A stretch of 53,904 nt of DNA from an uncultured Burkholderiales bacterium (GTDB lineage Bacteria > Pseudomonadota > Gammaproteobacteria > Burkholderiales > Burkholderiaceae_C). This document shows positions 7,091 to 29,378 of the stretch, piece after piece (the first letter of the stretch is position 1; each line of letters starts with the position of its first letter). A program made the position numbers and the translations under genes. The stretch lies in NCBI GenBank assembly GCA_937873395.1, contig CALMYH010000012.1, forward strand, positions 1 to 53,904, read 5' to 3'. Below the pieces are notes generated by a model, which was not told where the DNA came from, ran no database searches, and saw nothing but the letters and a program-made list of their open reading frames with translations.

Positions 7091-7146
7091 AGGTCATCGA
7101 GGCTTCACACAAGCACCATGAAGGCGTCACGCACGCTGTCGACACT
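7091..7146 (+). promoter_or_regulatory. Degenerate tandem Pho-box array and -10 upstream of the first phoX
   Basis: Four 7-mers spaced exactly 11 bp apart carry a TCA/CCA core: AGGTCAT (7091), GCTTCAC (7102), GCACCAT (7113) and GCGTCAC (7124). PhoB binds 11-bp direct repeats of CTGTCAT + 4 nt. Ten nt after the last unit is GACACT (7141-7146), a weak -10. Each unit alone is a poor match, so the claim rests on phasing and gene context. A short hairpin (GCCTCGA/TCGAGGC, 7083-7103) overlaps the array. Confidence 0.4.
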
Positions 7147-7179
7147 GCGGGTTCTGTTCAACCCACGGTGGAGAGCCTC

Positions 7180-9255
7180 ATGGCCCAAAGCATTCGAGAC
7201 GACGACGGTGTATCCAACACCTCCCGCAACGTCAGCCTGACCGAACTGGTCGATCAGGCCATCGCACAAAACCCCCAAAGGCGCCTTTTGCTGAAGTCAG
7301 GGCTGGGCGCCGCGATGCTGCCCTTCCTGGGGGGCCTGGCCGCCTGCGGCGGTGGCAGCGACACGGTCACCACGCCCCCGCCCGCCACGCCTCGGGAAGC
7401 GGTCCTGGGCTTCAATCCGGTGGCGGCATCGAGCGGCGATGTGGTGATCGTGCCGGAAGGCTACACGGCCGAGATCCTGAACAGCTGGGGCGATCCGCTG
7501 TTTGCCGACAGCCCCGACTTCGCCGGCGATGCCAGCGAGACCTGGCGCGAGGCCGAGCTGCAGGTGGGGGACAACCACGACGGCATGAGCTTCTTCCCGC
7601 TGCCCTTCGGCACCGAAAGCAACGACCGCGGTCTGCTGGTGCTCAACCACGAGTACATCAACCCCGAGTACTACTACAAGCCCGAGCTGGAGGCCGGCAC
7701 GGGCGAATGGTATGAGCCTTTCACCTTCGAAAAGGTGCGCAAGGGCCTGGCCGGTCATGGCCTGAGCGTGATGGAGGTCCAGCGCAACGCCGACGGCAGC
7801 TGGCGCTATGTCAAGGGCTCGCCCTACAACCGCCGGGTCACCGGTTACACCCCCATCGAGCTCACCGGCCCGGTGCGTGGCAACGCGGCCGTGCGCACGG
7901 CCGCCGACCCAACCGGCACCGAGGTGCTGGGCACCCTGAACAACTGCGCCAACGGCCAGACCCCCTGGGGCACCTACCTGACCTGCGAGGAAAACTCCAA
8001 CGGCTACTTCGGCTGGAACGGCAGCCGCACCCGCACCGCCGCCGAAGCGCGCTACGGCTACAGCCAGAACGGTTTCGGCTACATGTGGCACACCCAGGAT
8101 CCACGTTTCGACCTGAACGCCAACCCCAACGAGCCGAACCGGTTCCACTGGGTGGTGGAAGTGGACCCCTACAACCCGCAGAGCAAGCCGAAGAAGCGCA
8201 CCGCCCTGGGCCGTTTCAAGCACGAGAACATCGAGATCGTGATCGGTGCCGACAACACCGTGGTGGCCTACTCGGGCGACGACGAGCGCGGCGACTACAT
8301 CTACAAGTTCGTGTGTGCCAACCCGTTCAACCCCACCAACATGGCCGCCAACCGCGACCTGCTGGACTCGGGCACCCTGTACGTGGCCCGCTTCGATGCC
8401 GGTGCCGTGGCCGGTGACAACCGGGGTATCGGCGAATGGATCGCCCTGGTGCACGGCCAGAACGGCCTGACGGTGGAAAACGGCTTCGCCGATCAGGCCG
8501 ACGTCCTGATTCGCACCCGCATGGCCGCCGACTTTGTGGGCGCCACCCGGATGGACCGCCCGGAGTGGATCGCGGCCAACCCGACCCGGTTGGGCGACGT
8601 GTACATCGCGCTGACGAACAACTCACAGCGCGGAACCACTTTCGCCGTCGACGAGGCCAACCCGCGCGCCTCCAACGCCTGGGGCCACATCCTGCGCTGG
8701 ACCGAAACCGGCGCCGACCCCAAGGCCACCACCTTCACCTGGGACATGTTCCTGCTGGCGGGCAACCCGGTCGCCTTCCCGGACCGCACCGACCCGCGCT
8801 CGGGCTCGTTGAACATCACCCCCGAGAACATGTTCAACTCGCCCGACGGCCTGTACTTCGACCAGAGCGGTCGCCTCTGGATCCAGACCGACGGTTCCTT
8901 CGCCAACACCAACAATTTCGCCGGCATGGGCAACAACCAGATGCTGGCCGCCGATGTCGAGACCGGCGAGGTACGGCGATTCCTGGTCGGCCCGTCGGGC
9001 TGCGAAATCACCGGTCTGGCCTTCACACCCGACCGCCGGACCATGTTCGTCAACGTGCAGCACCCGGGCGAAGTGGGATCCCACCCGAACCGCCCGGCCC
9101 AGTCCGGGGACGATCAGATCGCCCGCAACCCGACGGCCTTCTCCATCTGGCCGGCCAGCCAGACCAATCCGCCCGCCAACCGCGCCGACGCCGGCCGTCC
9201 GCGTTCGGCCACGGTGGTCGTTCGCCGCCTGGACGGTGGCGTGATCGGCGGCTGA
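7180..9255 (+). CDS. phoX: PhoX-family alkaline phosphatase (first copy), Tat lipoprotein
   Basis: The 691-residue protein belongs to the PhoX (DUF839) family of Ca2+/Fe3+ alkaline phosphatases that release Pi from organic phosphates outside the cytoplasm. The N-terminus has a twin arginine (NPQRRLLLKSGLGAAMLP, RR at about 34-35) ending in LAAC, a lipobox, so a Tat-exported lipoprotein is predicted. Family blocks are VPEGYTAEIL, LVLNHEYINPEYY, TLNNCANGQTPWGTYLTCEEN (21 residues, 7934-7996; its first Cys corresponds to the iron-ligand Cys of characterised PhoX), MDRPEW and a C-terminal VVRRLDGGVIGG. The ATG at 7180 has GGAG 7 nt upstream; a GTG at 7168 is less likely. A second copy lies at 15429. 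Confidence 0.93.
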   Translation: MAQSIRDDDGVSNTSRNVSLTELVDQAIAQNPQRRLLLKSGLGAAMLPFLGGLAACGGGSDTVTTPPPATPREAVLGFNPVAASSGDVVIVPEGYTAEILNSWGDPLFADSPDFAGDASETWREAELQVGDNHDGMSFFPLPFGTESNDRGLLVLNHEYINPEYYYKPELEAGTGEWYEPFTFEKVRKGLAGHGLSVMEVQRNADGSWRYVKGSPYNRRVTGYTPIELTGPVRGNAAVRTAADPTGTEVLGTLNNCANGQTPWGTYLTCEENSNGYFGWNGSRTRTAAEARYGYSQNGFGYMWHTQDPRFDLNANPNEPNRFHWVVEVDPYNPQSKPKKRTALGRFKHENIEIVIGADNTVVAYSGDDERGDYIYKFVCANPFNPTNMAANRDLLDSGTLYVARFDAGAVAGDNRGIGEWIALVHGQNGLTVENGFADQADVLIRTRMAADFVGATRMDRPEWIAANPTRLGDVYIALTNNSQRGTTFAVDEANPRASNAWGHILRWTETGADPKATTFTWDMFLLAGNPVAFPDRTDPRSGSLNITPENMFNSPDGLYFDQSGRLWIQTDGSFANTNNFAGMGNNQMLAADVETGEVRRFLVGPSGCEITGLAFTPDRRTMFVNVQHPGEVGSHPNRPAQSGDDQIARNPTAFSIWPASQTNPPANRADAGRPRSATVVVRRLDGGVIGG

Positions 9256-9311
9256 TTTCCGCTTGCTTAGGGAAGCCGGGCGTGGGTATGCCAGTCCGCA
9301 CCGGCATTGAC

Positions 9312-9344
9312 GGGGGTGGGTGCCTTGTGCCCACCTCCTTTTTT
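9312..9344 (+). terminator. Rho-independent terminator after the first phoX
   Basis: A 12-bp stem (9312-9323 with 9327-9338, three G-U pairs, 3-nt loop) is followed by six T (9339-9344), 56 nt beyond the phoX stop. Confidence 0.75.
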
Positions 9345-9383
9345 CATCTCGGCCACAAAGGCCGCATTTCCTCGGAGACTCCC

Positions 9384-9482
9384 ATGACTCGGGTGCAGGC
9401 TCGCAACACGGTGCAGCGACCGGCGGCCGAGGCGTACTCGCACCAGTCGGTGGTGAGCGCCGGCGGTCTGACGCAGCCCTGA
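9384..9482 (+). CDS. Candidate 32-residue small protein between phoX and the glycosyltransferase
   Basis: The ORF starts at an ATG with GGAG 6 nt upstream (9374-9377) and encodes MTRVQARNTVQRPAAEAYSH followed by QSVVSAGGLTQP. It lies between the phoX terminator and a perfect 11-bp hairpin that begins 4 nt after its stop. The peptide is soluble, slightly basic and lacks a signal peptide. I do not recognise it. No promoter is obvious, so it could depend on read-through. In this GC-rich DNA a 32-codon ORF can occur by chance; the ribosome-binding site and flanking hairpins are the only support. Confidence 0.4.
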   Translation: MTRVQARNTVQRPAAEAYSHQSVVSAGGLTQP

Positions 9483-9485
9483 TGC

Positions 9486-9510
9486 CGAACCCCGCCGGCG
9501 GCGGGGTTCG
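9486..9510. terminator. Perfect 11-bp hairpin between the small ORF and the glycosyltransferase
   Basis: CGAACCCCGCC (9486-9496) pairs perfectly with GGCGGGGTTCG (9500-9510) around a GGC loop. It lies between two converging stops (9482 and 9513). No T-run follows on either strand, so it is a stable hairpin that may end both transcripts or protect 3' ends. Confidence 0.5.
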
Positions 9511-9512
9511 GG

Positions 9513-10742
9513 TCATGCGACCGGCAGGGCGAGAGCGGCCGGTCGCGGCGACGGACTCGAAAGCAGGCCGGACCACAGCTCCTCGACCTGGCCTGCGATG
9601 CGCTGCCAGTCCTGGGAAGCGACGCGACGGGCGGCCCGCTGGCCTGCCATGCGCAGGGTGTCGACCTGCCCGGCCAGGGCGGCCGCCTGTTCAAGATAGC
9701 GTTCCTCGCGTCCTGCACTGGCCAGCCAGCCGTCCTCACCCGATGTGATCCATTCGGCCGCTGCCGCCACATCGAACGCCAGCACCGGCAGGCCGCTGGC
9801 CATGGCTTCCAGTGTGACGTTGCCGAAGGTCTCGGTCAGGCTGGGAAAAAGCATCAGATCGGCGCTGGCGTAGCAGACCGCCAGTTCGGCATGGCTGCAC
9901 TGCCCCATGAAGATGGCCTCGGGGCAGCGGCGCTGCAGGGCGGCGCGCATCGGGCCGTCGCCGGCGAACACCAGTCGGGTCCCGGCACCGGAATGCCGCA
10001 TGGTTTCGTAGGCCCGCACGACCAGATCCAGGTTTTTTTCGGCCGCCAGGCGACCCACCGCGAGCAGGACGGTGTCGCCCTCGCCAGCACCCCAGCGATG
10101 GCGCAGCGACTCGTCGCGCCGCCCCGGATGGAACAGGCGCGTATCGATGCCCCGCCCCACGACGCGCACGCGCTCGAAGCCCTGGTTGATGAGCTCGGCG
10201 GCCAGGGCGCGTGTGGGCACCATGGTGAAGCCGGTCTGGTTGTGAAAGCGCCGCAGGTAGGCCGCAATGGGTTTCCTGAGCCATCCCAGACCGTAATGGG
10301 CACTGTAGCTGTGAAAGTTGGTCCGGAAGTCCGAGCTCACCGGCAGTCGCAGCCGGCGGGCCGCCTGCAGGGCCGACCAGCCCAGGGGGCCCTCGGTGGC
10401 GATGTGCACCAGATCGGGCCGTCGGAAGGTCCACGACTGTTGCAGCGCGCGACGGGCGGGCAAGCCCAGTTTGAGTTGAGGGTATCGCGGAATCGGCATG
10501 CCGCGCATGAGCTTTTCTTCAAGGCCACTCGCGGACGCCTCGCCCCCATCCGGCACCTGCCGCGGCCGCACCAACTGGATCCGATGGCCACGGTCGCACA
10601 GGGTGCTGACGAGGCGAGCCAGTGTCAACGCCACGCCATTGACCTCGGGCGGCCAGGTCTCGGTCACCACCGCCAGTTGCAGGCGAGGCTGGTGGACGGG
10701 CAGATCCTGCAGCAGCAGGTCGGAGCAGGGGTCGTGTCTCAT
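9513..10742 (-). CDS. GT4-family glycosyltransferase, probable diacylglycerol or lipid glycosyltransferase
   Basis: This 409-residue GT-B enzyme opens LAVVTETWPPEVNGVALTLA, the start shared by MgtA/SqdX/alpha-mannosyltransferase-like GT4 enzymes. The C-terminal domain has the donor site VGRLAAEKNLDLVV, FAGDGP and the EX7E region FPSLTETFGNVTLEAMASG. It transfers a sugar from a nucleotide-sugar donor; a lipid acceptor is inferred because such enzymes make phosphorus-free glycolipids during Pi starvation and this gene lies in a phosphate-related island. The ATG at 10742 is chosen over 10787, though neither has a strong ribosome-binding site. It is divergent from the Mpo1-like gene across 176 nt with Pho-box-like repeats. 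Confidence 0.82.
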   Translation of the reverse strand: MRHDPCSDLLLQDLPVHQPRLQLAVVTETWPPEVNGVALTLARLVSTLCDRGHRIQLVRPRQVPDGGEASASGLEEKLMRGMPIPRYPQLKLGLPARRALQQSWTFRRPDLVHIATEGPLGWSALQAARRLRLPVSSDFRTNFHSYSAHYGLGWLRKPIAAYLRRFHNQTGFTMVPTRALAAELINQGFERVRVVGRGIDTRLFHPGRRDESLRHRWGAGEGDTVLLAVGRLAAEKNLDLVVRAYETMRHSGAGTRLVFAGDGPMRAALQRRCPEAIFMGQCSHAELAVCYASADLMLFPSLTETFGNVTLEAMASGLPVLAFDVAAAAEWITSGEDGWLASAGREERYLEQAAALAGQVDTLRMAGQRAARRVASQDWQRIAGQVEELWSGLLSSPSPRPAALALPVA

Positions 10743-10796
10743 GCGCGCAGTCTCGCCGGCCAGCGCAACAAACTGATGACAAGGCATCGCTGTTTC

Positions 10797-10825
10797 GTGT
10801 CAGCCACATGCCACCCGAATGACCC
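10797..10825 (-). promoter_or_regulatory. Possible Pho-box repeats facing the glycosyltransferase gene
   Basis: On the minus strand three 7-mers with 4-nt spacers read GGGTCAT (10825-10819), GTGGCAT (10814-10808) and CTGACAC (10803-10797), each 5 of 7 to CTGTCAT. No convincing -10 lies 10 nt downstream, so this is weaker than the forward site at 10833. Confidence 0.35.
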
Positions 10826-10832
10826 TCCCCAT

Positions 10833-10866
10833 CTGTCACGCCGGTTTCATGCGGACGCCGCAAGAT
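10833..10866 (+). promoter_or_regulatory. Pho box and -10 upstream of the Mpo1-like gene
   Basis: CTGTCAC (10833-10839), spacer GCCG, GTTTCAT (10844-10850) give 11 of 14 matches to the PhoB box. CAAGAT (10861-10866) follows after exactly 10 nt, the spacing of characterised PhoB-activated promoters. Confidence 0.5.
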
Positions 10867-10918
10867 GCGCCGGGGCTGGGTCGCCGGCCTCCAACCGTTG
10901 AAACGCCAAGGAGATGAT

Positions 10919-11524
10919 GTGAACAGCTTCTTCCAGGAACTCGCCACGCAGCGCTGGGACGATCACCGCTACTACCACCACAGCCGGATCAACCAGGCCC
11001 TGCACCTGGTCAGCGCCATCAGCTTTCTGGTCGCCTACCTGTGGCTCCTGATCGACCCGGTGGTCTCGGCCCTGATCGCCTGGCTGATCTCCATGACTTC
11101 GCGGCAGGCCGGACATTTCTTTTTCGAACCCAAGGGGTACGACGAGATCAACCAGGCCACCCACGAGCACAAAGAGGCGATCAAGGTGGGGTACAACCTG
11201 CAACGCAAGGTGGTGCTGATGGCCTTGTGGGCCCTGGTGCCGCTGGTCATTGCCCTGCATCCCGGTGCCCTTGGCCTGGTGGAAGCCCACGAAGACTTCA
11301 ACGGCTACATCCGGCAGGTCGGCGCCGCCTGGCTGCTGCTGGGCATCGGCGGCCTGCTGTTCCGGGTCGTGCAGCTCTGGTTCCTCAAGGATCTGCGGAC
11401 CGGTCTGGTCTGGGCCACCAAGATCCTCACCGATCCCTTCCACGACATCGCTCTCTACCACAAGGCGCCCCTGCACCTGATGCGCGGCGAGTGGCTGGAC
11501 CCGGGCCACGGTCGGGCCCGCTGA
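10919..11524 (+). CDS. Mpo1-like (DUF962-type) multi-pass membrane protein
   Basis: The 201-residue protein has about four hydrophobic helices. Its N-terminal His motif YYHHSRINQALH and the later GHFFFEP and THEHKEA resemble the conserved histidines of the Mpo1/DUF962 family. The yeast member is an Fe2+-dependent dioxygenase of 2-hydroxy fatty acids. The start is the GTG at 10919 because AAGGAG lies 5 nt upstream; the frame also opens earlier at 10865 without a site. A Pho-box-like repeat with a correctly spaced -10 precedes it. A role in fatty-acid or lipid turnover under Pi limitation is inference, and the family match is from motifs only. Confidence 0.6.
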   Translation: MNSFFQELATQRWDDHRYYHHSRINQALHLVSAISFLVAYLWLLIDPVVSALIAWLISMTSRQAGHFFFEPKGYDEINQATHEHKEAIKVGYNLQRKVVLMALWALVPLVIALHPGALGLVEAHEDFNGYIRQVGAAWLLLGIGGLLFRVVQLWFLKDLRTGLVWATKILTDPFHDIALYHKAPLHLMRGEWLDPGHGRAR

Positions 11525-11550
11525 GTCCTGACCCCGGTGCCCGTCGGGCC

Positions 11551-13200
11551 TCAGAACCCGAAACGGGCCGCCAGAAACTCGCGCAGCACGCGTCGGCGGA
11601 TCCAGCGATCGTTCAGGCCTTCCGGATTCATCCACCAGCCGCTCCTGCGCATGTCGCGACCCGCCTTCACGAAGCGTTCCACCACCTCCGCGAACTCGGC
11701 ATCGTCCATGCGCAGACTGAAGATCAGCCGTCCGGTTCCGACCCAGCTCAGGGCCACACCATGCCAGCGCAGGTAATACTGCAGCATCCAGTTGTAGCGC
11801 GAGGGCTCGGTGAAATCGATGGTCCAGATGCTCTGCAGGTGAGCCGCACGCATGGGCAGCGCCTCGCGTTCCATGGTTTCGTTGAACAGGCGGGCGCGCG
11901 CATCCCAGCGCTCATCCTGCCCCTCATAGGCCGCGAGCACCTCCGGGTCGTCCAGGCGCTTGAGGAAGGCGGACATGCCGGCCATCACATAAGGATGGGC
12001 ATTGAAAGTGCCACGCGCCAGGCACAGATCGGCCGGTCGGTCGTCGCGGTAACGGCGCATCAGGTCGTGGCGGCCGCACAGGACACCCACCGGGTAGCCC
12101 CCGGCGATCGTCTTGCCGTAGGTCACCATGTCGGCCTGCACGCCGAAGTAGGCCTGTGCGCCGCCCGGTGCCAGCCGGAAGCCGAGAAACACCTCGTCCA
12201 TGATCAGCACGATTCGCCGCTCGGTGCATACCTGGCGCAGCCGCTGCAGCCAGTCGGCGTAGGCCTGCCGGTCGAATCCGGCGCGGCGGCTGCTGTCAAG
12301 CAGGGCGGAGTCGGCCGGGGCGTTGCGATTCGGATGCAGGGCCTGCAGGGGGTTGACCAGCACACAGGCGATGTCGCGCCGGTGCCGCAACACGTCCAGG
12401 CTGCGCTCGCTGATGTCGGCCAGGGTGTAAGTTTCCCGCGGCGGCATCGGATTGCCCGGCCCCGGCTGCACATCGTCCCACCAGCCGTGGTAGGCCCCGC
12501 AGAAGCGCACCAGGTGGCGCCGCCCGGTGTGGTAGCGGGCCAGCCGGACCGCCTGCATCACCGCCTCCGTGCCCGACATGTGGAAGGACACCTCGTCCTG
12601 CCCCGAGATGTCCTGCAGGCGCTCCACAATGCCTGCGACGCAGGGGTGGTAGGCGCCCAGCACCGGGCCGAGCGCCTCGGCCACCTGCAAGCCCTCGGCC
12701 ATGCAGGCCTTGTAGAAGTCCACCCCCATCACATTCACCCCGTAGGAACCGGTCAGATCGATGAACCGGTTGCCGTCCAGATCGATGAGCGTGTGGCCCT
12801 GGGCCGATGCCACAAAGGCGCCCACAGGCAGGTGCTGGCGGACCAGGGGCGCGAACTGGAAAGGCACCCGGTAGGCGCTGGTCAGCTGAAGGTCGGCAAG
12901 CCCCTCCCTCGCCTGGCGGGTCAGCGCCAGCGAACGGGCATAGCGGGTGGAGAAACCGGCGGACAAGGCCTCGAAAGCCTCCCGGCGCCGCTGGGCCACC
13001 CCTTCATCCGCCCCGTCACAACGAAAGAATTCGTGCTCGTCGTAGTGGTAGGCCGGCAGCCAACGGGCCAGACGCTTGGCCATTCGGGAATGGCCTGCCA
13101 GCGAACGGTGCTTGGCACGCGAAAGCGCCAGACGCCGGGACAGCATGGGCCAGCTCAGGGCCAGCGCGCCCAAAGGCAAAGCGTAGGGCAAAACAGACAT
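11551..13200 (-). CDS. Class III PLP aminotransferase (glutamate-1-semialdehyde aminomutase-like) with N-terminal membrane anchor
   Basis: The 549-residue protein has a complete fold type I PLP domain: SGTEAVMQAVRLAR (about 209), CGAYHGWWDD, the cofactor Asp in LIMDEVFLGFR (about 335) and the Schiff-base Lys in YGKTIAGGYPVG (about K363). It is about 120 residues longer than HemL. The extra N-terminus begins with a hydrophobic segment (YALPLGALALSWPML) and then a basic helix, which suggests membrane anchoring. It therefore is unlikely to be the tetrapyrrole enzyme. The ATG has AGGAG upstream. It is divergent from the phosphatidylserine decarboxylase gene across 59 nt. An amino-lipid or head-group substrate is possible but unproven. 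Confidence 0.82.
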   Translation of the reverse strand: MSVLPYALPLGALALSWPMLSRRLALSRAKHRSLAGHSRMAKRLARWLPAYHYDEHEFFRCDGADEGVAQRRREAFEALSAGFSTRYARSLALTRQAREGLADLQLTSAYRVPFQFAPLVRQHLPVGAFVASAQGHTLIDLDGNRFIDLTGSYGVNVMGVDFYKACMAEGLQVAEALGPVLGAYHPCVAGIVERLQDISGQDEVSFHMSGTEAVMQAVRLARYHTGRRHLVRFCGAYHGWWDDVQPGPGNPMPPRETYTLADISERSLDVLRHRRDIACVLVNPLQALHPNRNAPADSALLDSSRRAGFDRQAYADWLQRLRQVCTERRIVLIMDEVFLGFRLAPGGAQAYFGVQADMVTYGKTIAGGYPVGVLCGRHDLMRRYRDDRPADLCLARGTFNAHPYVMAGMSAFLKRLDDPEVLAAYEGQDERWDARARLFNETMEREALPMRAAHLQSIWTIDFTEPSRYNWMLQYYLRWHGVALSWVGTGRLIFSLRMDDAEFAEVVERFVKAGRDMRRSGWWMNPEGLNDRWIRRRVLREFLAARFGF

Positions 13201-13259
13201 GGGGTTGACTCCTGCGGAACAGCCGCCCGCATCTTTTATGGCATCGAAGTGACACGCGC

Positions 13260-14156
13260 ATGAAAATCACCCATCAACTGAAGCGGCTGGCGCTGCAGGA
13301 AGACCTGAATTTCCTGCTGACCAACCGCATTCCCCGCCTCGCGGCCACGCGCTTCGTGGGGTGGTTCAGCCGCATCCGCCACCCCTGGGTCTACCGCCTC
13401 TCGATGTGGGTGTGGACGCGCTTCACCGACCTGGACCTGAGCGAGGCCAGGCACACCGGGTTCCGGAGCCTGCACGAGTGCTTCACGCGCGAGCTTCGAC
13501 CCGGGGCCCGGCCGGTGGACAACACGGACACGGTGATCGTCAGCCCGAGCGACGGCATCGTCGGCGCCACCGGCACCATCGAGGCCGTGGGGCCGAACCG
13601 CACCCAGGTCTTCCAGATCAAGGGCTTCCCTTACCTGCTGGAGGACCTGCTGGGCAACACCCCGCAAGGCACCCGGTGGGCGTCCGCCCTGGTCGGGGGC
13701 TGCTACGTGACGCTGCGCCTGACCTCGGCCATGTACCACCGCTTCCATGCACCGGACCACGCGCGGCTGTCCCACGTCACCTACATCAGCGGTGACACCT
13801 GGAATGTCAACCCGATTGCCCTCAGGCGCATCGAGCGCCTGTTCTGCAAGAACGAGCGGGCGGTTCTCCACCTGGAGCTGGCCGACGGCCGCTGGCTGCT
13901 GCTGGTGCCTGTGGCGGCGATCCTGGTGGCGAGCCTGCGACTGCACGCACTGGACGTGCCGCTGAACCTGCGTTACCCGGGACCCAACGAGCTGCCCTGC
14001 GACGCCCACTACGCGCGCGGCGATGAGATAGGATGGTTCGAGCACGGATCGACCATCGTCGTGCTGGCTCCTCCAGACCTGTCCCTGGCACCGGGCATGG
14101 TCAGCGGGCGCCTGTTGCGCATGGGGGAGGCCTTGCTGCGCAAGCCGGCGCCATGA
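13260..14156 (+). CDS. psd: Phosphatidylserine decarboxylase
   Basis: The 298-residue protein fits the pyruvoyl-dependent decarboxylase that converts phosphatidylserine to phosphatidylethanolamine at the inner membrane. It shows the catalytic Asp in VSPSDGIVG (about residue 99), the His motif YHRFHAP and the self-cleavage motif in FEHGSTIVV, where the Ser becomes the pyruvoyl group. The length is nearer the E. coli type (322) than the short type (about 215) that I recall as the housekeeping enzyme in many betaproteobacteria, so this may be a second, specialised copy. Its neighbours are the membrane-anchored aminotransferase, a Pho-controlled small gene and PAP2. Confidence 0.9.
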   Translation: MKITHQLKRLALQEDLNFLLTNRIPRLAATRFVGWFSRIRHPWVYRLSMWVWTRFTDLDLSEARHTGFRSLHECFTRELRPGARPVDNTDTVIVSPSDGIVGATGTIEAVGPNRTQVFQIKGFPYLLEDLLGNTPQGTRWASALVGGCYVTLRLTSAMYHRFHAPDHARLSHVTYISGDTWNVNPIALRRIERLFCKNERAVLHLELADGRWLLLVPVAAILVASLRLHALDVPLNLRYPGPNELPCDAHYARGDEIGWFEHGSTIVVLAPPDLSLAPGMVSGRLLRMGEALLRKPAP

Positions 14157-14186
14157 CCTCTCAACCGCACAAGATGGGTGCAGGCA

Positions 14187-14231
14187 CCGTCATTTTTCTG
14201 TCATTTTTCATTCACGAAAACCGGGCACGCT
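14187..14231 (+). promoter_or_regulatory. Near-consensus Pho box and possible -10 upstream of the 101-residue protein
   Basis: CCGTCAT (14187-14193), TTTT, CTGTCAT (14198-14204), TTTT, CATTCAC (14209-14215). The first two units match CTGTCAT-N4-CTGTCAT at 13 of 14 positions with an A/T spacer, and a third unit continues the 11-bp phase. Ten nt after the third unit is CACGCT (14226-14231), a weak -10; TATCCT at 14237-14242 is an alternative. Confidence 0.75.
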
Positions 14232-14294
14232 GCGGATATCCTAGGGGAATCCCTGCGTACCGCAGTATGCACGACCCACTTCTGGAGTTCCCCC

Positions 14295-14600
14295 ATGCGA
14301 GCCGTCAAGAAAGCCCGTAAGCTGATCGAAGCCAACCCCACGCACAGCACCGCCGAGACCCTTTCCCGCCTGGTGCTGGCACTCGAGTCCAGGACACCGT
14401 TCCAGCTGGACGAGCTGTACAAGCTGAGCTATGCGGATTTCGAGCTGGCGCTGGCCGTGATTGCCGAATGGCGCCTGGACCGCTACTACACCAGCAAGGC
14501 GGTGCTGCTGGACCTTTCCTTGCAGGTCGAGCAAGGCAAGACCAAGGCGGCCGCGCAAGACACGGCCACCCCGGCGCAGGCGCCGACAGCCCAAGGCTGA
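14295..14600 (+). CDS. Small helical protein of unknown function under a Pho box
   Basis: This 101-residue, mostly helical, soluble protein has an ATG with GGAG 7 nt upstream. The body (AETLSRLVLALESRTPFQL, then ELALAVIAEWRLDRYY) suggests two or three amphipathic helices. The last 25 residues are Ala/Thr/Gln-rich and probably disordered. I recognise no domain and see no signal peptide. It lies 64 nt before the Pho box that precedes the PAP2 gene and about 80 nt after the best Pho box in the window, so expression under phosphate starvation is a firm prediction. Its function is not known. Confidence 0.8.
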   Translation: MRAVKKARKLIEANPTHSTAETLSRLVLALESRTPFQLDELYKLSYADFELALAVIAEWRLDRYYTSKAVLLDLSLQVEQGKTKAAAQDTATPAQAPTAQG

Positions 14601-14656
14601 TCGCCTGCCCGAATCGACCGTGACCTGAACCGGCCATCGCCCGGCCGGCAGAGGGA

Positions 14657-14690
14657 ACTTCACGAAGCTGTCATGTCGGTCGGCCATGCT
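14657..14690 (+). promoter_or_regulatory. Pho box and -10 upstream of the PAP2 gene
   Basis: ACTTCAC (14657-14663), GAAG, CTGTCAT (14668-14674) form a 7-4-7 repeat whose second unit is a perfect consensus. CATGCT (14685-14690) follows after exactly 10 nt and ends 7 nt before the ATG at 14698, so the transcript may be leaderless. Confidence 0.5.
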
Positions 14691-14697
14691 GGTCGTC

Positions 14698-15294
14698 ATG
14701 AGCCATGCCAGCCCCAACGGATCCCCTGCATCCCTTGATTCGCGCCTACCACGCCCGAGCCGATGGCTGCAGCGCGTGGATCTGTTCCTGTTCGCGCGAC
14801 TGGGTGCCGGTCACGCGGCGCGACCCGCGGTGCTGACCGTGGCGATCGGATCGAGCCGCTGGAGCTGGTTGCCCATGCTGGCCGTCGTGCTGCCGCTGGC
14901 ACTGGGGTCGACGCTGGGCCTGACAACCGTGATCGCCTGCCTGCTGTGGGCCGGCGCGGTCCAGTGGGGCGCGAAGCGTCTGGCCCGGCACTGGCAGGTT
15001 CAGCGGCCATTCACCCAGGGCCTGAGCCCGAATCACCTCGGTCACAGCCTGCGACCGGGATTCCCGAGCACACACGCCGTGGTGATGGGCTTTGTGACTG
15101 CCTTCCTCACACTGGGTCCGGCCGACGCCATGACCGCCGCCGCCCTGGTGTTGCTGAGCGCCGTCACCGGCTGGGCGCGGGTGTACGCAGGGGCACACTT
15201 TCCCTCGGACGTGCTGGCCGGCTGGACGCTGGGTGCCCTGACCGGCCTGTTCGCCTGGGAATGGATGGACTGGCTCGGGCTTCTGTCGGACTGA
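14698..15294 (+). CDS. PAP2-superfamily membrane phosphatase
   Basis: The 198-residue integral membrane protein carries all three PAP2 motifs: KRLARHWQVQRPF, PSTHA and WARVYAGAHFPSDV, with the catalytic histidines in the last two. Such enzymes dephosphorylate phosphatidic acid, phosphatidylglycerophosphate, undecaprenyl diphosphate or similar lipids on the outer face of the inner membrane. Five or six hydrophobic helices are visible. The ATG at 14698 is preferred over 14686 because the Pho-type promoter would start transcription there. Making diacylglycerol for the nearby glycosyltransferase is an attractive inference. Confidence 0.88.
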   Translation: MSHASPNGSPASLDSRLPRPSRWLQRVDLFLFARLGAGHAARPAVLTVAIGSSRWSWLPMLAVVLPLALGSTLGLTTVIACLLWAGAVQWGAKRLARHWQVQRPFTQGLSPNHLGHSLRPGFPSTHAVVMGFVTAFLTLGPADAMTAAALVLLSAVTGWARVYAGAHFPSDVLAGWTLGALTGLFAWEWMDWLGLLSD

Positions 15295-15317
15295 CGGCAG
15301 GCGCTTTCCGGTTTCTT

Positions 15318-15351
15318 CCTTCATCACGTCGTCACACTGCGACGATACGGT
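15318..15351 (+). promoter_or_regulatory. Pho-box-like repeat and -10 upstream of the second phoX
   Basis: CCTTCAT (15318-15324), CACG, TCGTCAC (15329-15335) give 9 of 14 matches. TACGGT (15346-15351) follows after exactly 10 nt. The leader to the ATG at 15429 is about 70 nt. Confidence 0.4.
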
Positions 15352-15428
15352 TTACAAGGGCTTCCCGACCGGATCCCGGCAGGCACCCCCGCCCGCATCC
15401 TTCACGAATCACCCACGAGCAGACCCCC

Positions 15429-17507
15429 ATGAGCCAACTGCCCTCCTCCCTCATCATCAACAACGGCGACGGCGACGAGCCGATGTCCAACGCCAGTGAC
15501 AACCGCCATTTCGACGCCGTGCTGAAGGCGCACCTGAGCCGCCGCTCGGCCCTCAAGGGCACCCTTGGCGCGTCGATCGCGACCCTGTTCGGCGGTGTCG
15601 GCCTGGCCGGCTGCGCCACCGGCGCGGGGGGGTCGGGCAGCCCGCTGATCGGCTTTCAGGCCGTCCCCATCAGTGAGGCCGACACGGTGCTCGTTCCCAA
15701 AGGCTACAAGGTGCAGACCTTCGTCCCCTGGGGCACACCCATCACCGGCAACCTGCCGGCGTTCGATCCGTTGAAAAACACCGGTGCCGACCAGGCCCAC
15801 CAGATGGGCAGCCACCACGACGGCATGCACTTCTTTCCGATCGAGGGCAAGGATCCCTACCGCGGCAGCTCCACCGAAGGCCTGCTGGTGATGAACCACG
15901 AATACGTGGAACCGCGCTACATGCACGCCAGCGCCGTCGGCCAGAAACTCGACCGCAACGCCGTGCCGGCCCTGGTCAACGGCAAGCGTCCGGCCGACGA
16001 ATGCCGCAAGGAAATCAACGCCCACGGCGTGTCGGTGGTGCACATCAAAAAGGGCACCCACGGAGAGTGGAGTGTGGTGAACAGCAAGCTCAACCGCCGC
16101 ATCACCGGTGCCACGCCCATGGCCATCAACGGACCGGTGCGAGGCACCGATTTGGTCAGGACCAGGTACAGCCCGGACGGCACCCGTACCCGGGGCACGC
16201 TCAACAACTGCGCCCACGGCGTCACGCCCTGGAACACCTACATGATGGCCGAGGAAAACTGGGCCGGTTACTTCATCAACAAGGTCGGCGCCAATGGCCG
16301 CACCCGCGAGCAGTCACGCTATGGTGTGCGCCACAACGAAAGCCGGCCCGCCGCCTCCCGCTACGGCTGGGAACTGGCCGACAGCGGTGCCGACGAGTTC
16401 GTCCGCTTTGACGTCAGCGCCAAGGGCGCCGATGCCACACAGGACTATCGCAACGAAGCCAATGGCTTTGGCTGGATGGTGGAATTCGACCCGTTCAACC
16501 CGGACAGCACGCCGGTCAAGCGGACCTCTCTCGGTCGCTTCGCGCATGAAGGGGTGGTGTTCGCCAAAGCGGTCGAAGGCAAGCCGGTGGTCTGCTACTC
16601 GGGTGACGACGCCATCAACGAATACATCTACAAGTTCGTGTCCAACGGCGTGTACCGGAAGGCCGCCGGTGTGGCCAACGGCGCCCTCCTCGACGAAGGC
16701 ACGCTGTACGTCGCCAGATTCAACGACGACGGCACGGGCCAGTGGCTGCCCCTGGTGTTTGGCCAGGGCCCCTTGAATCCGACACCCAGCAACCAGGGCG
16801 ACGAGCAATGCCAGGCGTGTTTCCAGAGCCAGGCCGACGTCCTGGTCAACACCCGACTGGCCGCGGACCGCCTGGGGGCCACCAAAATGGATCGGCCCGA
16901 ATGGGGTGCCATCGACCCGAAGACCGGGCAGGTGTACTTCACGCTCACCAACAACAGCCGGCGCGAGGTGACCGACAAGGCCAACCCGCGTGCCAAGAGC
17001 CGCTGGGGCCACATCATCCGCTGGACCGAAGCCGGCAACGACCCCACGGCCACCCGCTTCAAGTGGGACATCTACCTGCTTTCCGGTCCGGAAAACGACT
17101 CGATGCTCGCCGGCAAGCCCCTGAACAAGGACCAGATCCACAACAGCCCCGACGGCCTGTGGTTCGACAAGGACGGCCGCCTATGGATCCAGACCGACAT
17201 CAGCGAAAGCTCGATGAACCGGGGCGACTATGTTCAGTTCGGCAACAACCAGATGCTGTGCGCCGACCCGCATACCCACGAACTCAAGCGTTTCCTGGTG
17301 GGCCCGGTCGGTCAGGAAATCACCGGCGTGATCACCACACCCGACGGCAAGACGATGTTTGTCAACATCCAGCACCCCGGTGCCACCACCAGCGCCGACG
17401 ACTTCGCCGCTGGCAAGCTCACCGGGACCTGGCCGAACATGGGCCGGTACGCTCGCTCCGCCACCATCGTCATCACCAAGGAAGATGGTGGCGTGATCGG
17501 CACCTGA
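15429..17507 (+). CDS. phoX: PhoX-family alkaline phosphatase (second copy), Tat lipoprotein
   Basis: The 692-residue paralogue of the gene at 7180 has the same architecture. It has a twin-arginine signal (HLSRRSALKGTLGASI, RR at 38-39) ending in a lipobox LAGC with Cys at about 62. Family blocks are VPKGYKVQTF, LLVMNHEYVEPRYM, TLNNCAHGVTPWNTYMMAEEN (21 residues, 16199-16261) and a C-terminal VITKEDGGVIGT. It differs by the insert containing EQCQACFQSQADVLVNTRL and a longer acidic region before MVEFDPFNPD. Periplasmic Pi release is expected. The ATG at 15429 gives a complete signal peptide. It converges on the helicase gene. Confidence 0.93.
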   Translation: MSQLPSSLIINNGDGDEPMSNASDNRHFDAVLKAHLSRRSALKGTLGASIATLFGGVGLAGCATGAGGSGSPLIGFQAVPISEADTVLVPKGYKVQTFVPWGTPITGNLPAFDPLKNTGADQAHQMGSHHDGMHFFPIEGKDPYRGSSTEGLLVMNHEYVEPRYMHASAVGQKLDRNAVPALVNGKRPADECRKEINAHGVSVVHIKKGTHGEWSVVNSKLNRRITGATPMAINGPVRGTDLVRTRYSPDGTRTRGTLNNCAHGVTPWNTYMMAEENWAGYFINKVGANGRTREQSRYGVRHNESRPAASRYGWELADSGADEFVRFDVSAKGADATQDYRNEANGFGWMVEFDPFNPDSTPVKRTSLGRFAHEGVVFAKAVEGKPVVCYSGDDAINEYIYKFVSNGVYRKAAGVANGALLDEGTLYVARFNDDGTGQWLPLVFGQGPLNPTPSNQGDEQCQACFQSQADVLVNTRLAADRLGATKMDRPEWGAIDPKTGQVYFTLTNNSRREVTDKANPRAKSRWGHIIRWTEAGNDPTATRFKWDIYLLSGPENDSMLAGKPLNKDQIHNSPDGLWFDKDGRLWIQTDISESSMNRGDYVQFGNNQMLCADPHTHELKRFLVGPVGQEITGVITTPDGKTMFVNIQHPGATTSADDFAAGKLTGTWPNMGRYARSATIVITKEDGGVIGT

Positions 17508-27061: not shown

Positions 27062-28648
27062 TCAGGTCATCACCGCTCGGACGATGTGGAACAGGATGGC
27101 GGCCAGCACCGCAGTGGCCGGTACCGTCACGATCCAGGCAGCCACGATGCGCAGCACCGTCGAACGTTTGACCAGCTCCTTTTTGTAGGCCTTCTTGAGG
27201 GCTTTCTGTTCTTTCTTCGCCAGCACCGTGCCGTCGGCCAGTTGGCGCTGCTTGGCGAGCTTCTTCATTTCGGCCAGCATGCGCTTCTTCTCGCTCACCT
27301 CGGCCGCCTCGAAGCGTTTCAGATAGGCCTCCACCTCCTCACGATCTCCCCCCTGGTGGCCGGCGAAAACCACCGCCTCCATCTTCGCGTAATTGACCTT
27401 GAGCAGCTCGCGCAGGAAACCCACACCGATGACCGCGCCGATGGTGGTGTGGGTGGTCGAAATCGGCATGCCGAGCTCAGCCGCGATGATCACCGTCAGG
27501 GTGGCGGCCATGGCGATGGAATAGGCCCGCATGTTGTCGAGCTCGGTGATCTCCTTGCCCACGGTGCGGATCAGCTTGGCGCCGTAGAGCGCCAGGCCGA
27601 CGGCCAGGCCCAGGGCCCCCAGCACCATCACCCACATCGGGGATGCCGCCCGGGTGGCCACCGCACCGCTCTTGACCGCCTCGTAAATGGCCGCCAGCGG
27701 GCCGATGGCGTTGCCCACGTCGTTGGCCCCATGGGCAAAACTGAGCAGGGCCGCCGCACAGATGAGCGGCCAGGTGAACAGGCGGTTGACGCCGTCTTTG
27801 CTGTTGTCCTGGCGCAGGGCGGCCCGTGCGATGGGCCTGCGAACCAGGGCCCAGACCACCACCGCCACCAGCGCACCCAGGCCAACCGCTGGCCAGAACC
27901 CCATCTTGACCAGCTGGCTCAGTCCCTTGAGCAGCATGAAGGTGGCATAGGCCCAGACCATGAGCGCAATGAGCACCGGCACCACCCGGGCCGCGGCCTC
28001 GGTCTTTTCGCTGCGGTAGGTGATGCTGCGCTTGATGATGTAGAGGAACAGGGCCGCGATCAGCGCCCCCGTCAAGGGCGAGGCCACCCAGCTGGCGACG
28101 ATCTTGGTGATGGTGCCCCAGTTCACCAGGCCCCAGCCACCGGCCGCAATACCGGCCCCCATGACGGCACCGATGATGGAGTGGGTGGTCGACACCGGCG
28201 CCCCCAGCGCCGTGGCCAGATTGAGCCAGAGCGCCCCGGCCAGCAGGGCCGCCAGCATCACCCAGGCAAACAGGGCCGGGTCGGCAATCTGTTTGCTGTC
28301 GATGATGCCGCCCTTGATGGTGCCCACCACCTCGCCGCCGGCGATGATGGCGCCCAGCGCCTCGAACACGGCCGCGATGACGATGGCCCAGCCCATGGTC
28401 AGGGCGCCGGAACCGACGGCCGGTCCCATGTTGTTGGCCACATCGTTGGCACCGATGTTCATGGCCATGTAGCCACCGATGACCGCGGCGACAATGAGCA
28501 ACCCCACGGACGCCGCAGGCAGGCCGGCCACGGATGCGCCCGTCAGGGAGGCGTACAGTCCGACCAGCCCCAGAAACAACAGGGCGCCACCGAGCTGGAA
28601 GACCTCCAGGTGGCGCGAAACAAAGCGGTTGCGGGATTTTCGTGTCAT
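27062..28648 (-). CDS. pitA: Pit-family low-affinity inorganic phosphate transporter
   Basis: The 528-residue membrane protein carries the duplicated PHO4 signatures GANDVANNMGPAVGSGAL (about residue 66) and GANDVGNAIGPLAA (about 310), and ALGAPVSTTHSIIGAVMGAG with its repeat LGMPISTTHTTIGAVIGVG. It imports metal-phosphate with protons at the inner membrane. A Lys/Glu-rich hydrophilic stretch of about 90 residues (about 430-500) precedes the last helix. It lies outside the phosphate island and has no clear Pho box. A palindromic region is just upstream of the ATG. Confidence 0.93.
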   Translation of the reverse strand: MTRKSRNRFVSRHLEVFQLGGALLFLGLVGLYASLTGASVAGLPAASVGLLIVAAVIGGYMAMNIGANDVANNMGPAVGSGALTMGWAIVIAAVFEALGAIIAGGEVVGTIKGGIIDSKQIADPALFAWVMLAALLAGALWLNLATALGAPVSTTHSIIGAVMGAGIAAGGWGLVNWGTITKIVASWVASPLTGALIAALFLYIIKRSITYRSEKTEAAARVVPVLIALMVWAYATFMLLKGLSQLVKMGFWPAVGLGALVAVVVWALVRRPIARAALRQDNSKDGVNRLFTWPLICAAALLSFAHGANDVGNAIGPLAAIYEAVKSGAVATRAASPMWVMVLGALGLAVGLALYGAKLIRTVGKEITELDNMRAYSIAMAATLTVIIAAELGMPISTTHTTIGAVIGVGFLRELLKVNYAKMEAVVFAGHQGGDREEVEAYLKRFEAAEVSEKKRMLAEMKKLAKQRQLADGTVLAKKEQKALKKAYKKELVKRSTVLRIVAAWIVTVPATAVLAAILFHIVRAVMT

Positions 28649-28655
28649 GGTTTTT

Positions 28656-28671
28656 TCACGTGAATTTCACG
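28656..28671. promoter_or_regulatory. Overlapping palindromes upstream of pitA
   Basis: TCACGTGA (28656-28663) and CGTGAATTTCACG (28659-28671) overlap within 25 nt of the pitA ATG. They could form an operator or an RNA hairpin. No known factor is recognised. Confidence 0.3.
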
Positions 28672-28757
28672 ATTTTGACACGACTGGACTGGCTGAACGG
28701 CGTTCACACGGTCGCACATGACGGGTCGCCCCGTCCGGTGCAGGGACGCGCAATGCC

Positions 28758-29378
28758 TCAGCGCAGGAAGTGGGCCCGGTAATGCTCGAGCTCGTCGATC
28801 GATTCGTGCACGTCGGCCAGGGCCGTGTGGCGCTGCTGCTTCTTGAAGGCGTCGTAGACCTCGGGCCGCCATCGCTTGGCCAGCTCCTTGAGGGTGCTCA
28901 CGTCCAGACAACGGTAATGGAAATAGGCCTCAAGCTTCGGCATGTACTTGACCAGGAAGCGCCGGTCCTGGCTGATGGTGTTGCCACACATCGGGGAGGC
29001 GTTCCTGGGCACATGGCGCGCAATGAACTCCAGCAGTTGCTGCTCGGCCGCCGCCTCGTCAAGGGCGCTGGCCTTGACCTTGTCGATCAGGCCGCTTTTG
29101 CCGTGGGTGCCCTTGTTCCAGTTGTCCATGGCGTCGAGCACTGCCTGACTCTGATGGATCACCAGCACCGGCCCTTCGACACGCGGCTCCAGATGAGGCC
29201 CCGTGATCACCACGGCGATCTCCAGCAGGCGCTCCTTCTCGGGGTCCAGCCCACTCATTTCACAATCGATCCAGACCAGGTTCTGGTCGCTGCGAGGCAG
29301 CAGTACTGGTTCCGCGCCGGGCGTGACTGCGGCGGGCATCGATGCGTCGGTCGGGGTTTCGGATGTCATGGACGTCAT
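28758..29378 (-). CDS. orn: Oligoribonuclease
   Basis: The 206-residue product is the DEDDh 3'-5' exoribonuclease that degrades 2-5 nt RNAs, including pGpG from cyclic-di-GMP turnover. Exo [14 protein letters not shown], Exo [26 protein letters not shown] and Exo [17 protein letters not shown] with its His and Asp are all present. About 30 residues precede the core, longer than usual, and the start is uncertain: ATG 29378 and ATG 29369 are both possible and neither has a strong ribosome-binding site. It is upstream of pitA on the same strand and divergent from the M48 protease. Confidence 0.93.

Follow-up and report, generated by a model that had tools for sequence, protein, structure and literature searches.

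A conserved four-gene cassette with PhoB-type promoters, probably involved in membrane-lipid remodelling, in a Hydrogenophaga-like bacterium

Do the phosphate- and lipid-related genes clustered at positions 7,091–17,507 of contig CALMYH010000012.1 (assembly GCA_937873395.1) belong to one phosphate-starvation programme, and what would such a programme make? The contig, taken at its full length of 53,904 nt and called here the window, comes from an uncultured Burkholderiales bacterium with a host genome of 3.7 Mb in 183 contigs. An interpretation made from the letters alone, the sequence-only reading, had joined eight genes and five promoters into a single island under the regulator PhoB. We distinguish a smaller conserved core, which encodes a family 4 glycosyltransferase (GT4), an Mpo1-like protein, a class III aminotransferase (AT3) and a phosphatidylserine decarboxylase (PSD). 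This core is likely to be a PhoB-controlled lipid-remodelling cassette extending the PlcP-Agt pathway, and it probably helps to replace membrane lipids that contain phosphate by phosphate-free lipids. The source organism is a Hydrogenophaga-like bacterium; the named loci nearest to its AT3 are those of a Burkholderiales metagenome-assembled genome and of Hydrogenophaga (among the best 80 of at least 578 relatives).

Family searches found all eight genes of the proposed island in their places and with the identities first given to them:

7168-9255, plus strand: PhoX, an accessory neighbour (PF05787, 580 bits)
9513-10787 (longest open reading frame, ORF), minus strand: GT4 glycosyltransferase of the Agt-sister family, Agt2-like (PF13692/PF13439)
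10919-11524, plus strand: Mpo1-like protein, divergent member of PF06127/DUF962 (21.5 bits, cut-off 24)
11551-13200, minus strand: AT3, class III aminotransferase dependent on pyridoxal phosphate (PLP), with a predicted N-terminal hydrophobic helix (PF00202, 113 bits)
13260-14156, plus strand: second PSD, catalytic motifs intact (PF02666, 167 bits)
14295-14600, plus strand: small ORF, accessory (no Pfam or NCBIfam family matched)
about 14698-15294, plus strand: PAP2-family membrane phosphatase, accessory (PF01569, 62 bits)
15429-17507, plus strand: second copy of PhoX, an accessory neighbour (557 bits)

Comparison with relatives separated the core from its surroundings. Of 80 relatives, with the own genome counted among them, 42 have an AT3 orthologue (at least 51% identity); 40 of the other 41 AT3 places were taken as wide stretches, several of which are cut by contig ends. 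Genes for the Mpo1-like protein and PSD adjoin AT3 in all 40 stretches, and GT4 is present in 38; of the two exceptions, L051 starts inside the Mpo1-like gene and L072 has no recognisable GT4. The four-gene loci all have the order GT4-Mpo1-AT3-PSD, with GT4 and AT3 on the minus strand and the other two genes on the plus strand. A profile search of contigs with the AT3 alignment gave at least 578 relatives, and the best 80 of them, treated as named loci, contained AT3 in 80 cases, PSD in 78, the Mpo1-like gene in 76 and GT4 in 75, with several contigs ending nearby. Carriers among these 80 include Hydrogenophaga, Limnohabitans, Rubrivivax, Roseateles, Curvibacter, Polaromonas and Variovorax. 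Hydrogenophaga pseudoflava and H. palleronii are two of the cassette-bearing species.

Pooling gave 141 loci, of which 36 with short flanks were set aside. The remaining 105 loci all contained the Mpo1-like and PSD genes, and 101 contained GT4; after removal of duplicates (genomes present in two sets), the Mpo1-like and PSD genes stood beside AT3 in 96/96 distinct loci flanked on both sides by 3.5 kb or more, and GT4 was there in 92/96. Scattering of the genes in other genomes, one of the outcomes that the sequence-only reading had named as refuting it, was thus looked for, and the three genes were together in every distinct locus. The conserved core is GT4, Mpo1-like, AT3 and PSD, and the eight-gene island as drawn was too large. 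PhoX (20 of the 40 stretches), PAP2 (1) and a small ORF after PSD (8) are variable neighbours and were rejected as core parts. What survives of the single PhoB programme is a conserved set that is PhoB-type, phosphate-linked and apparently lipid-directed, not a unit of all eight genes.

Is this core preceded by PhoB sites? A plain scan of the window for CTGTCAT-N4-CTGTCAT was not significant (six hits, equalled by 10 of 100 shuffles), and it was replaced by a PhoB half-site matrix derived from pstS promoters. Eighteen such promoters were at hand (17 congeners and the own genome); L128 was dropped because its box is identical to that of L118, which left 17 (16 congeners and the own genome), and for L114 the register was chosen by its phase with the -10 element (10 matches) over the one that fits the consensus best (11). 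The own-genome pstS fragment scores 21.6 bits, below the cut-off, and has a strong box upstream. The pst region of this genome shares contig C11 with phoB (G000:C11:20840-21502; 320.5 bits, cut-off 296.2). Significance was estimated with 1000 dinucleotide shuffles for each of seven intergenic segments, uncorrected for their number. Four segments stand out (GT4/Mpo1, AT3/PSD, PSD-small ORF and small ORF-PAP2), with 4-9 of 1000 shuffles as good as the observed sequence:

10833-10850, plus strand: box of the Mpo1-like promoter, followed after 10 nt by the -10-like CAAGAT at 10861-10866 (score 12.9; best of its segment, 9/1000)
10765-10782, minus strand: PhoB-like box before GT4, TTGTCATCAGTTTGTTGC (11.4; lies in the segment of the shuffle-tested 10833 box)
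13238-13266, minus strand: two overlapping PhoB-like boxes before AT3, starting at 13249 and 13238 (13.9 and 13.6; 4/1000)
14187-14215, plus strand: PhoB-like half-site array before the small ORF, starting at 14187 and 14198 (12.3 and 9.5; 9/1000)
14657-14674, plus strand: PhoB-like box before PAP2 (10.8; 7/1000)

The boxes before AT3, the small ORF and PAP2 were counted without -10 statistics. Since the box at 10765, which recurs at the same place in many relatives, overlaps the 5′ end (10743-10787) of the longest GT4 ORF, which starts at 10787, the true GT4 start probably lies near 10742. The AT3 boxes are less conserved across relatives than the Mpo1 box. Of the five boxes proposed by the sequence-only reading, those at 10833, 14198 and 14657 hold, the second with its better register beginning at 14187; the box at 7113 was wrong and was rejected (matrix score -5.5), and that at 15318, before the PhoX gene at 15429, is not significant (5.0; 71/1000 shuffles). 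The boxes before AT3 (13249/13238) and GT4 (10765) had been missed. No PhoB-like box was found in the segment before the PhoX gene at 7168 (best score 3.3; 263/1000 shuffles), and none is significant in the PhoX-GT4 segment (694/1000 as good).

The case for PhoB boxes is carried by this genus-specific matrix together with the relatives. The genus set and its near kin provided 39 GT4/Mpo1 intervals, the window's included; that of L047, where GT4 is broken, is empty and was left out. Boxes scoring at least 12.9, on either strand, occur in 36 of the remaining 38. At this threshold the 6280 b of GT4/Mpo1 interval contain 51 hits, as many as the 724797 b elsewhere in the same loci, and the corresponding counts are 37 vs 32 at a threshold of 15 and 22 vs 13 at 17. 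Only 4 of 1339 background coding windows reach 12.9. Among 105 distinct loci, most of them from Burkholderiales, 80 carry a box of this strength ahead of the Mpo1-like gene, as do 2 of 17 other distinct loci. Within 31 Mpo1 promoters the motif NANNAT begins 10 nt past the box (A in 30/31, A in 27/31, T in 29/31), which bears out the 10-nt spacing between box and -10 element that had been claimed. The AT3/PSD interval is less regular, with 12 hits of at least 12.9 in 4816 b. Boxes of at least 11 were also seen in other lineages before GT4 (L242, L243 and L258), before AT3 (L242, L243, L245, L246, L252, L258 and L259) and before a methyltransferase gene (L251). Among the PhoX genes of the genus loci, 14/32 have a box of at least 12.9 near the start (the window's two are counted, both without), so the link between PhoX and PhoB is real in places and is not shown in the window. 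The conserved core, judged by its promoters, looks PhoB-controlled.

The sequence-only reading had set the island apart from known remodelling systems, PlcP/Agt among them. Its neighbourhood in relatives speaks otherwise. In the 40 stretches, neighbour clustering with a Pfam check of representatives revealed UDP-glucose dehydrogenase (UGDH) beside GT4 in seven loci and a PlcP-like metallophosphoesterase near the cassette in six. Over a distance of some 10 kb, or as far as the contig reaches, the 80 named loci contain PlcP (25), UGDH (24), PhoX (17), GT28 (8) and PstS (3); UshA-like neighbours (9/80) were set aside, 8 of the 9 being just 22-26% identical. PlcP is present in 59/80 relatives at E ≤ 1e-20. 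The own genome encodes it at C11:3538-4269, on the contig of phoB and pst, and this copy is 70% identical to a PlcP linked to a cassette. Its naming as PlcP is taken from the neighbourhood (adjacent Agt), because the query protein falls below LpxH cut-offs. Among 20 chosen PlcP places, an Agt-type GT4 lies directly downstream in 14, a GT4 is only in view in two and there is none in four; the own genome, with no Agt beside PlcP, is one of the four. According to PMC4796936 and PMC9239053, several bacteria have agt immediately 3′ of plcP, and Agt makes monoglucosyl-diacylglycerol (MGDG) and glucuronosyl-diacylglycerol (GADG).

GT4 itself provides a second link. A search of 30 chosen genomes with a congener Agt found a close Agt in 20 (E 1.4e-109 or lower); in cassette genomes it matched the cassette GT4 at about 1e-32 to 1e-42, and in the own genome the cassette GT4 is the sole Agt-like hit at E ≤ 1e-25. 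Pseudomonas-like genomes encode a GT4 46-50% identical to that of the cassette (13/13), and most of the 13 have an additional, weaker GT4 hit near PlcP. A tree of 79 GT4 proteins (midpoint root, several long branches) shows two groups with 100/100 support, one of PlcP-adjacent Agt and the Bradyrhizobium-like cassette GT4, the other of the Burkholderiales cassette GT4 and the Pseudomonas-like second GT4. The cassette GT4 thus belongs to the sister family of Agt, in a sister clade and not the same one. In NCBIfam it is matched best by a glycolipid synthase (143 bits, cut-off 480). PMC8528852 describes a comparable arrangement in P. aeruginosa, with two GT4s, Agt1 and Agt2 (PA3218/PA0842), one beside plcP and one apart, of which Agt2 makes GADG from UDP-glucuronate. 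The cassette GT4 clusters with the Pseudomonas-like second GT4, which is likely to be PA0842/Agt2, but the 13 Pseudomonas-like genomes examined contain no AT3 orthologue at E ≤ 1e-70.

Because GT4 is a sister of Agt, plcP shares the pst/phoB contig and PlcP or UGDH flank the cassette in many relatives, the cassette appears to belong with PlcP/Agt remodelling, and a clean separation from that system was rejected. It resembles the system of PMC4796936 and PMC9239053 in its phosphate linkage, the PlcP of its genome, its Agt-kind GT4 and the nearby UGDH of relatives. It differs in that its GT4 is of the sister clade and is not beside plcP here, and in that it adds an Mpo1-like protein, a class III aminotransferase and a second PSD. 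In two Roseateles loci (L210 and L211) the genes are rearranged but clustered, with Mpo1-like, AT3 and PSD on one strand and PlcP beside PSD.

The three added genes extend beyond Burkholderiales. An AT3 orthologue (E ≤ 1e-70) occurs in 25/398 genomes of the phylum, 20 of the 25 in other classes by the label of the search tool. Twenty places were taken, two of which (L241 and L244) come from the window's own taxonomic order, and 19 contain the Mpo1-like and PSD genes with AT3, the remaining one being a 4.4 kb contig. The Mpo1-AT3-PSD trio therefore reaches other Pseudomonadota classes, and its carriers there seem to include Bradyrhizobium-like, sphingomonad-like and Mariprofundus-like lineages. 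In the Bradyrhizobium-like loci the Mpo1-like gene is preceded by a GT4 of another kind, from the Agt clade, and by a PmtA-like methyltransferase. This methyltransferase lies upstream of the trio in L242, L247 and L249, and that of L242, the only one scanned, matches NCBIfam NF045882 with 151 bits (below the cut-off of 390).

At E ≤ 1e-50, PlcP is present in 18/25 AT3 genomes vs 130/373 other genomes of the phylum. Four of the seven PlcP-less AT3 genomes carry, between AT3 and PSD, a large ORF of 888-958 aa (loci oriented with AT3 on the minus strand):

L254, 6375-9110: large ORF
L255, 6976-9657: large ORF
L256, 6108-8984: large ORF
L259, 4705-7371: large ORF

In the L259 protein, the only one scanned, Pfam finds GT4 at the C-terminus and nothing else. 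A PHP-type metal site was read by eye in the N-terminal part of these ORFs, with no Pfam call. L252 and L253 show GT4 similarity at the same AT3-PSD place, and the contig of the seventh PlcP-less genome is too short. The large GT4 fusion may stand in for PlcP. As 6 of the 7 PlcP-less genomes belong to one family, the displacement counts as one or two events.

What could the trio make? By profile, AT3 is best matched, at 209.7 bits, by the mycosubtilin synthase AMT domain, ahead of glutamate-1-semialdehyde (GSA) aminomutases, among the best 60 of 93 matches. The same domain (PDB 6kfm) is its best fold match (Foldseek E 5.7e-26, among the best 50 of 1618), obtained with a model of fair quality (pLDDT 77.3, pTM 0.82, 14 sequences) that includes a predicted N-terminal helix at residues 4-29. 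The AMT domain aminates a β-keto acyl chain. AT3, about 26% identical to it, differs in standing alone as a protein and in its N-terminal hydrophobic helix; K363, which we take to be the PLP-binding lysine, is invariant within a TYGKT motif. The His-rich motifs DDHRYYHHSRINQxLH and GHFFFEP of the Mpo1-like protein are strongly conserved in 41 sequences. PSD passes TIGR00163 (132.9 bits, cut-off 111.75) and, like other bacterial PSDs, retains SPxD, YHxxH and GST, presumably the self-cleavage and catalytic motifs, in all 41 sequences with letters there. It differs from them as a second copy placed in a PhoB-type cassette: two PSDs were found in 38/42 cassette genomes (the other four are 59-82% complete), and one PSD in 10/10 cassette-less congeners. 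The kinship of AT3, the extra PSD and the kept motifs together suggest an amine-bearing lipid.

We infer that the cassette is induced at starvation for inorganic phosphate (Pi) and acts on lipids, and the following scheme would accommodate its genes. At Pi starvation PlcP, by homology, would strip head groups from phospholipids to give diacylglycerol. The cassette GT4 would then add glucose or glucuronic acid to diacylglycerol, a step proposed because of its kinship to Agt and the UGDH neighbours in relatives. The third step is speculative: the trio might make a second, amine-bearing lipid in place of phosphatidylethanolamine, with AT3 aminating a lipid intermediate that bears a carbonyl, perhaps supplied by an Mpo1-like oxygenase, and the PSD-type enzyme turning a serine-like head group into a primary amine by decarboxylation. 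A phosphorus-free amine-bearing lipid is thus our favoured, though speculative, product. More broadly, we tentatively propose that the trio could be the undescribed core of a pathway for a phosphorus-free amine lipid that replaces phosphatidylethanolamine at Pi starvation in Burkholderiales and parts of other Pseudomonadota classes, and that in PlcP-less lineages the GT4-fused large protein replaces PlcP as the diacylglycerol-releasing enzyme; we regard this extended proposal as possible, and as clearly less secure than the assignment of the cassette to PhoB-controlled lipid remodelling.

Several observations sit uneasily with a PhoB-controlled cassette of this kind. The threshold of 12.9 is the window's own Mpo1 score and was picked after that score had been seen. 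A strong box directly before Mpo1 is missing in 25/105 Burkholderiales-type and 15/17 other loci, six loci of other lineages (L247-L250, L256 and L257) have no box of at least 11 before any gene checked, and for both PhoX genes of the window the shuffle test gave no significant box. Within 450 b upstream of the Pseudomonas-like second GT4, just 2/13 genomes have a box, so its identification as Agt2 is tentative. The trio tracks PlcP loosely: PlcP is encoded by 148/398 genomes of the phylum and AT3 by 25, and 7/25 AT3 genomes have no PlcP at E ≤ 1e-50. All five Mpo1-like proteins tried, the window's own and those of four divergent relatives, score below the PF06127 cut-off of 24 (18.6-21.7 bits). 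Two PSDs also occur in 3/28 cassette-less genomes outside the genus, and the known product of PSD is a phospholipid, which is odd for a phosphorus-saving pathway.

Alternatively, the trio could be a phosphate-salvage loop that makes no new lipid. PSD would then renew phosphatidylethanolamine for PlcP, and AT3 would be a PLP phospho-lyase that acts on (phospho)ethanolamine, or on phosphatidylethanolamine itself, to strip off phosphate. Ethanolamine-phosphate phospho-lyases do occur among class III PLP enzymes, the PSD motifs are intact, and the PmtA-like methyltransferase upstream of some trios fits phospholipid head-group metabolism. However, AMT and GSA-aminomutase structures lead the AT3 matches, which made this role less likely; no phospho-lyase is among the best 60 of 93 profile or the best 50 of 1618 fold matches, and AT3 has its predicted N-terminal hydrophobic helix. 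We consider the loop unlikely. It is likewise improbable that the trio edits the glycolipid, with AT3 making an amino-sugar lipid by aminating the sugar of glucosyl- or glucuronosyl-diacylglycerol while PSD separately supplies phosphatidylethanolamine. The adjacency of GT4 and UGDH would suit such editing, and sugar C-6′ aminotransferases are among the class III structures matched, but at about 85 bits they are far below the 209.7 bits of the AMT domain, and no keto-sugar-making oxidase was recognised among recurrent neighbour families, which were inspected by eye with no dedicated search.

A role at the envelope surface (lipopolysaccharide or exopolysaccharide) under Pi stress, with GT4 as a polysaccharide glycosyltransferase and glycerolipids uninvolved, is very improbable: GT4 is a broad family whose NCBIfam matches include exopolysaccharide enzymes, far below cut-off, but this GT4 is nearest Agt, has a glycolipid synthase as its best match and keeps company with PSD, PlcP and PmtA-like partners that are all lipid enzymes by family. 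We give equally little credence to a plain stress-time backup of phosphatidylethanolamine synthesis by a second PSD with canonical motifs, its unrelated neighbours gathered by shared PhoB control, which leaves the strict adjacency of AT3, Mpo1-like and PSD unexplained (96/96 distinct loci, several classes, some reordered).

The novelty of the cassette lies in its Mpo1-AT3-PSD trio. Among the open-licence PubMed Central papers listed, none was found, by title, abstract start or term counts, to connect a class III aminotransferase and Mpo1/DUF962 with PSD under Pi starvation; this is weak evidence, as most subscription papers lie outside that literature. Phosphate-free membrane lipids matter in phosphate-poor water and soil, and for several of them we know of no assigned enzymes. 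A conserved, apparently phosphate-switched trio with no prior role found in lipid remodelling makes the question of the enzymes behind such lipids directly testable.

Three further features were noted around the cassette and in the window. A GT28-like glycosyltransferase is encoded after or near PSD in L037, L051, L149, L152, L153, L154, L183, L185, L195, L213 and L241, and perhaps serves a further glycolipid. The window's highest matrix score (14.4, at 28653) lies outside the cassette, beside a PHO4-family phosphate transporter gene (27062-28681, minus strand; PF01384, 350 bits). Four PhoB-like half-sites on the plus strand (28642-28681) overlap the 5′ end of the transporter gene and point to an ORF at 28770 that matched no Pfam family. 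Finally, a set of arsenic-resistance genes (ArsC, ACR3 and ArsH-like, named by eye) is located downstream of the cassette in L046, L049 and L054, and ACR3 is near it in four of the 80 named loci (L143, L158, L177 and L208); arsenate is a phosphate mimic.

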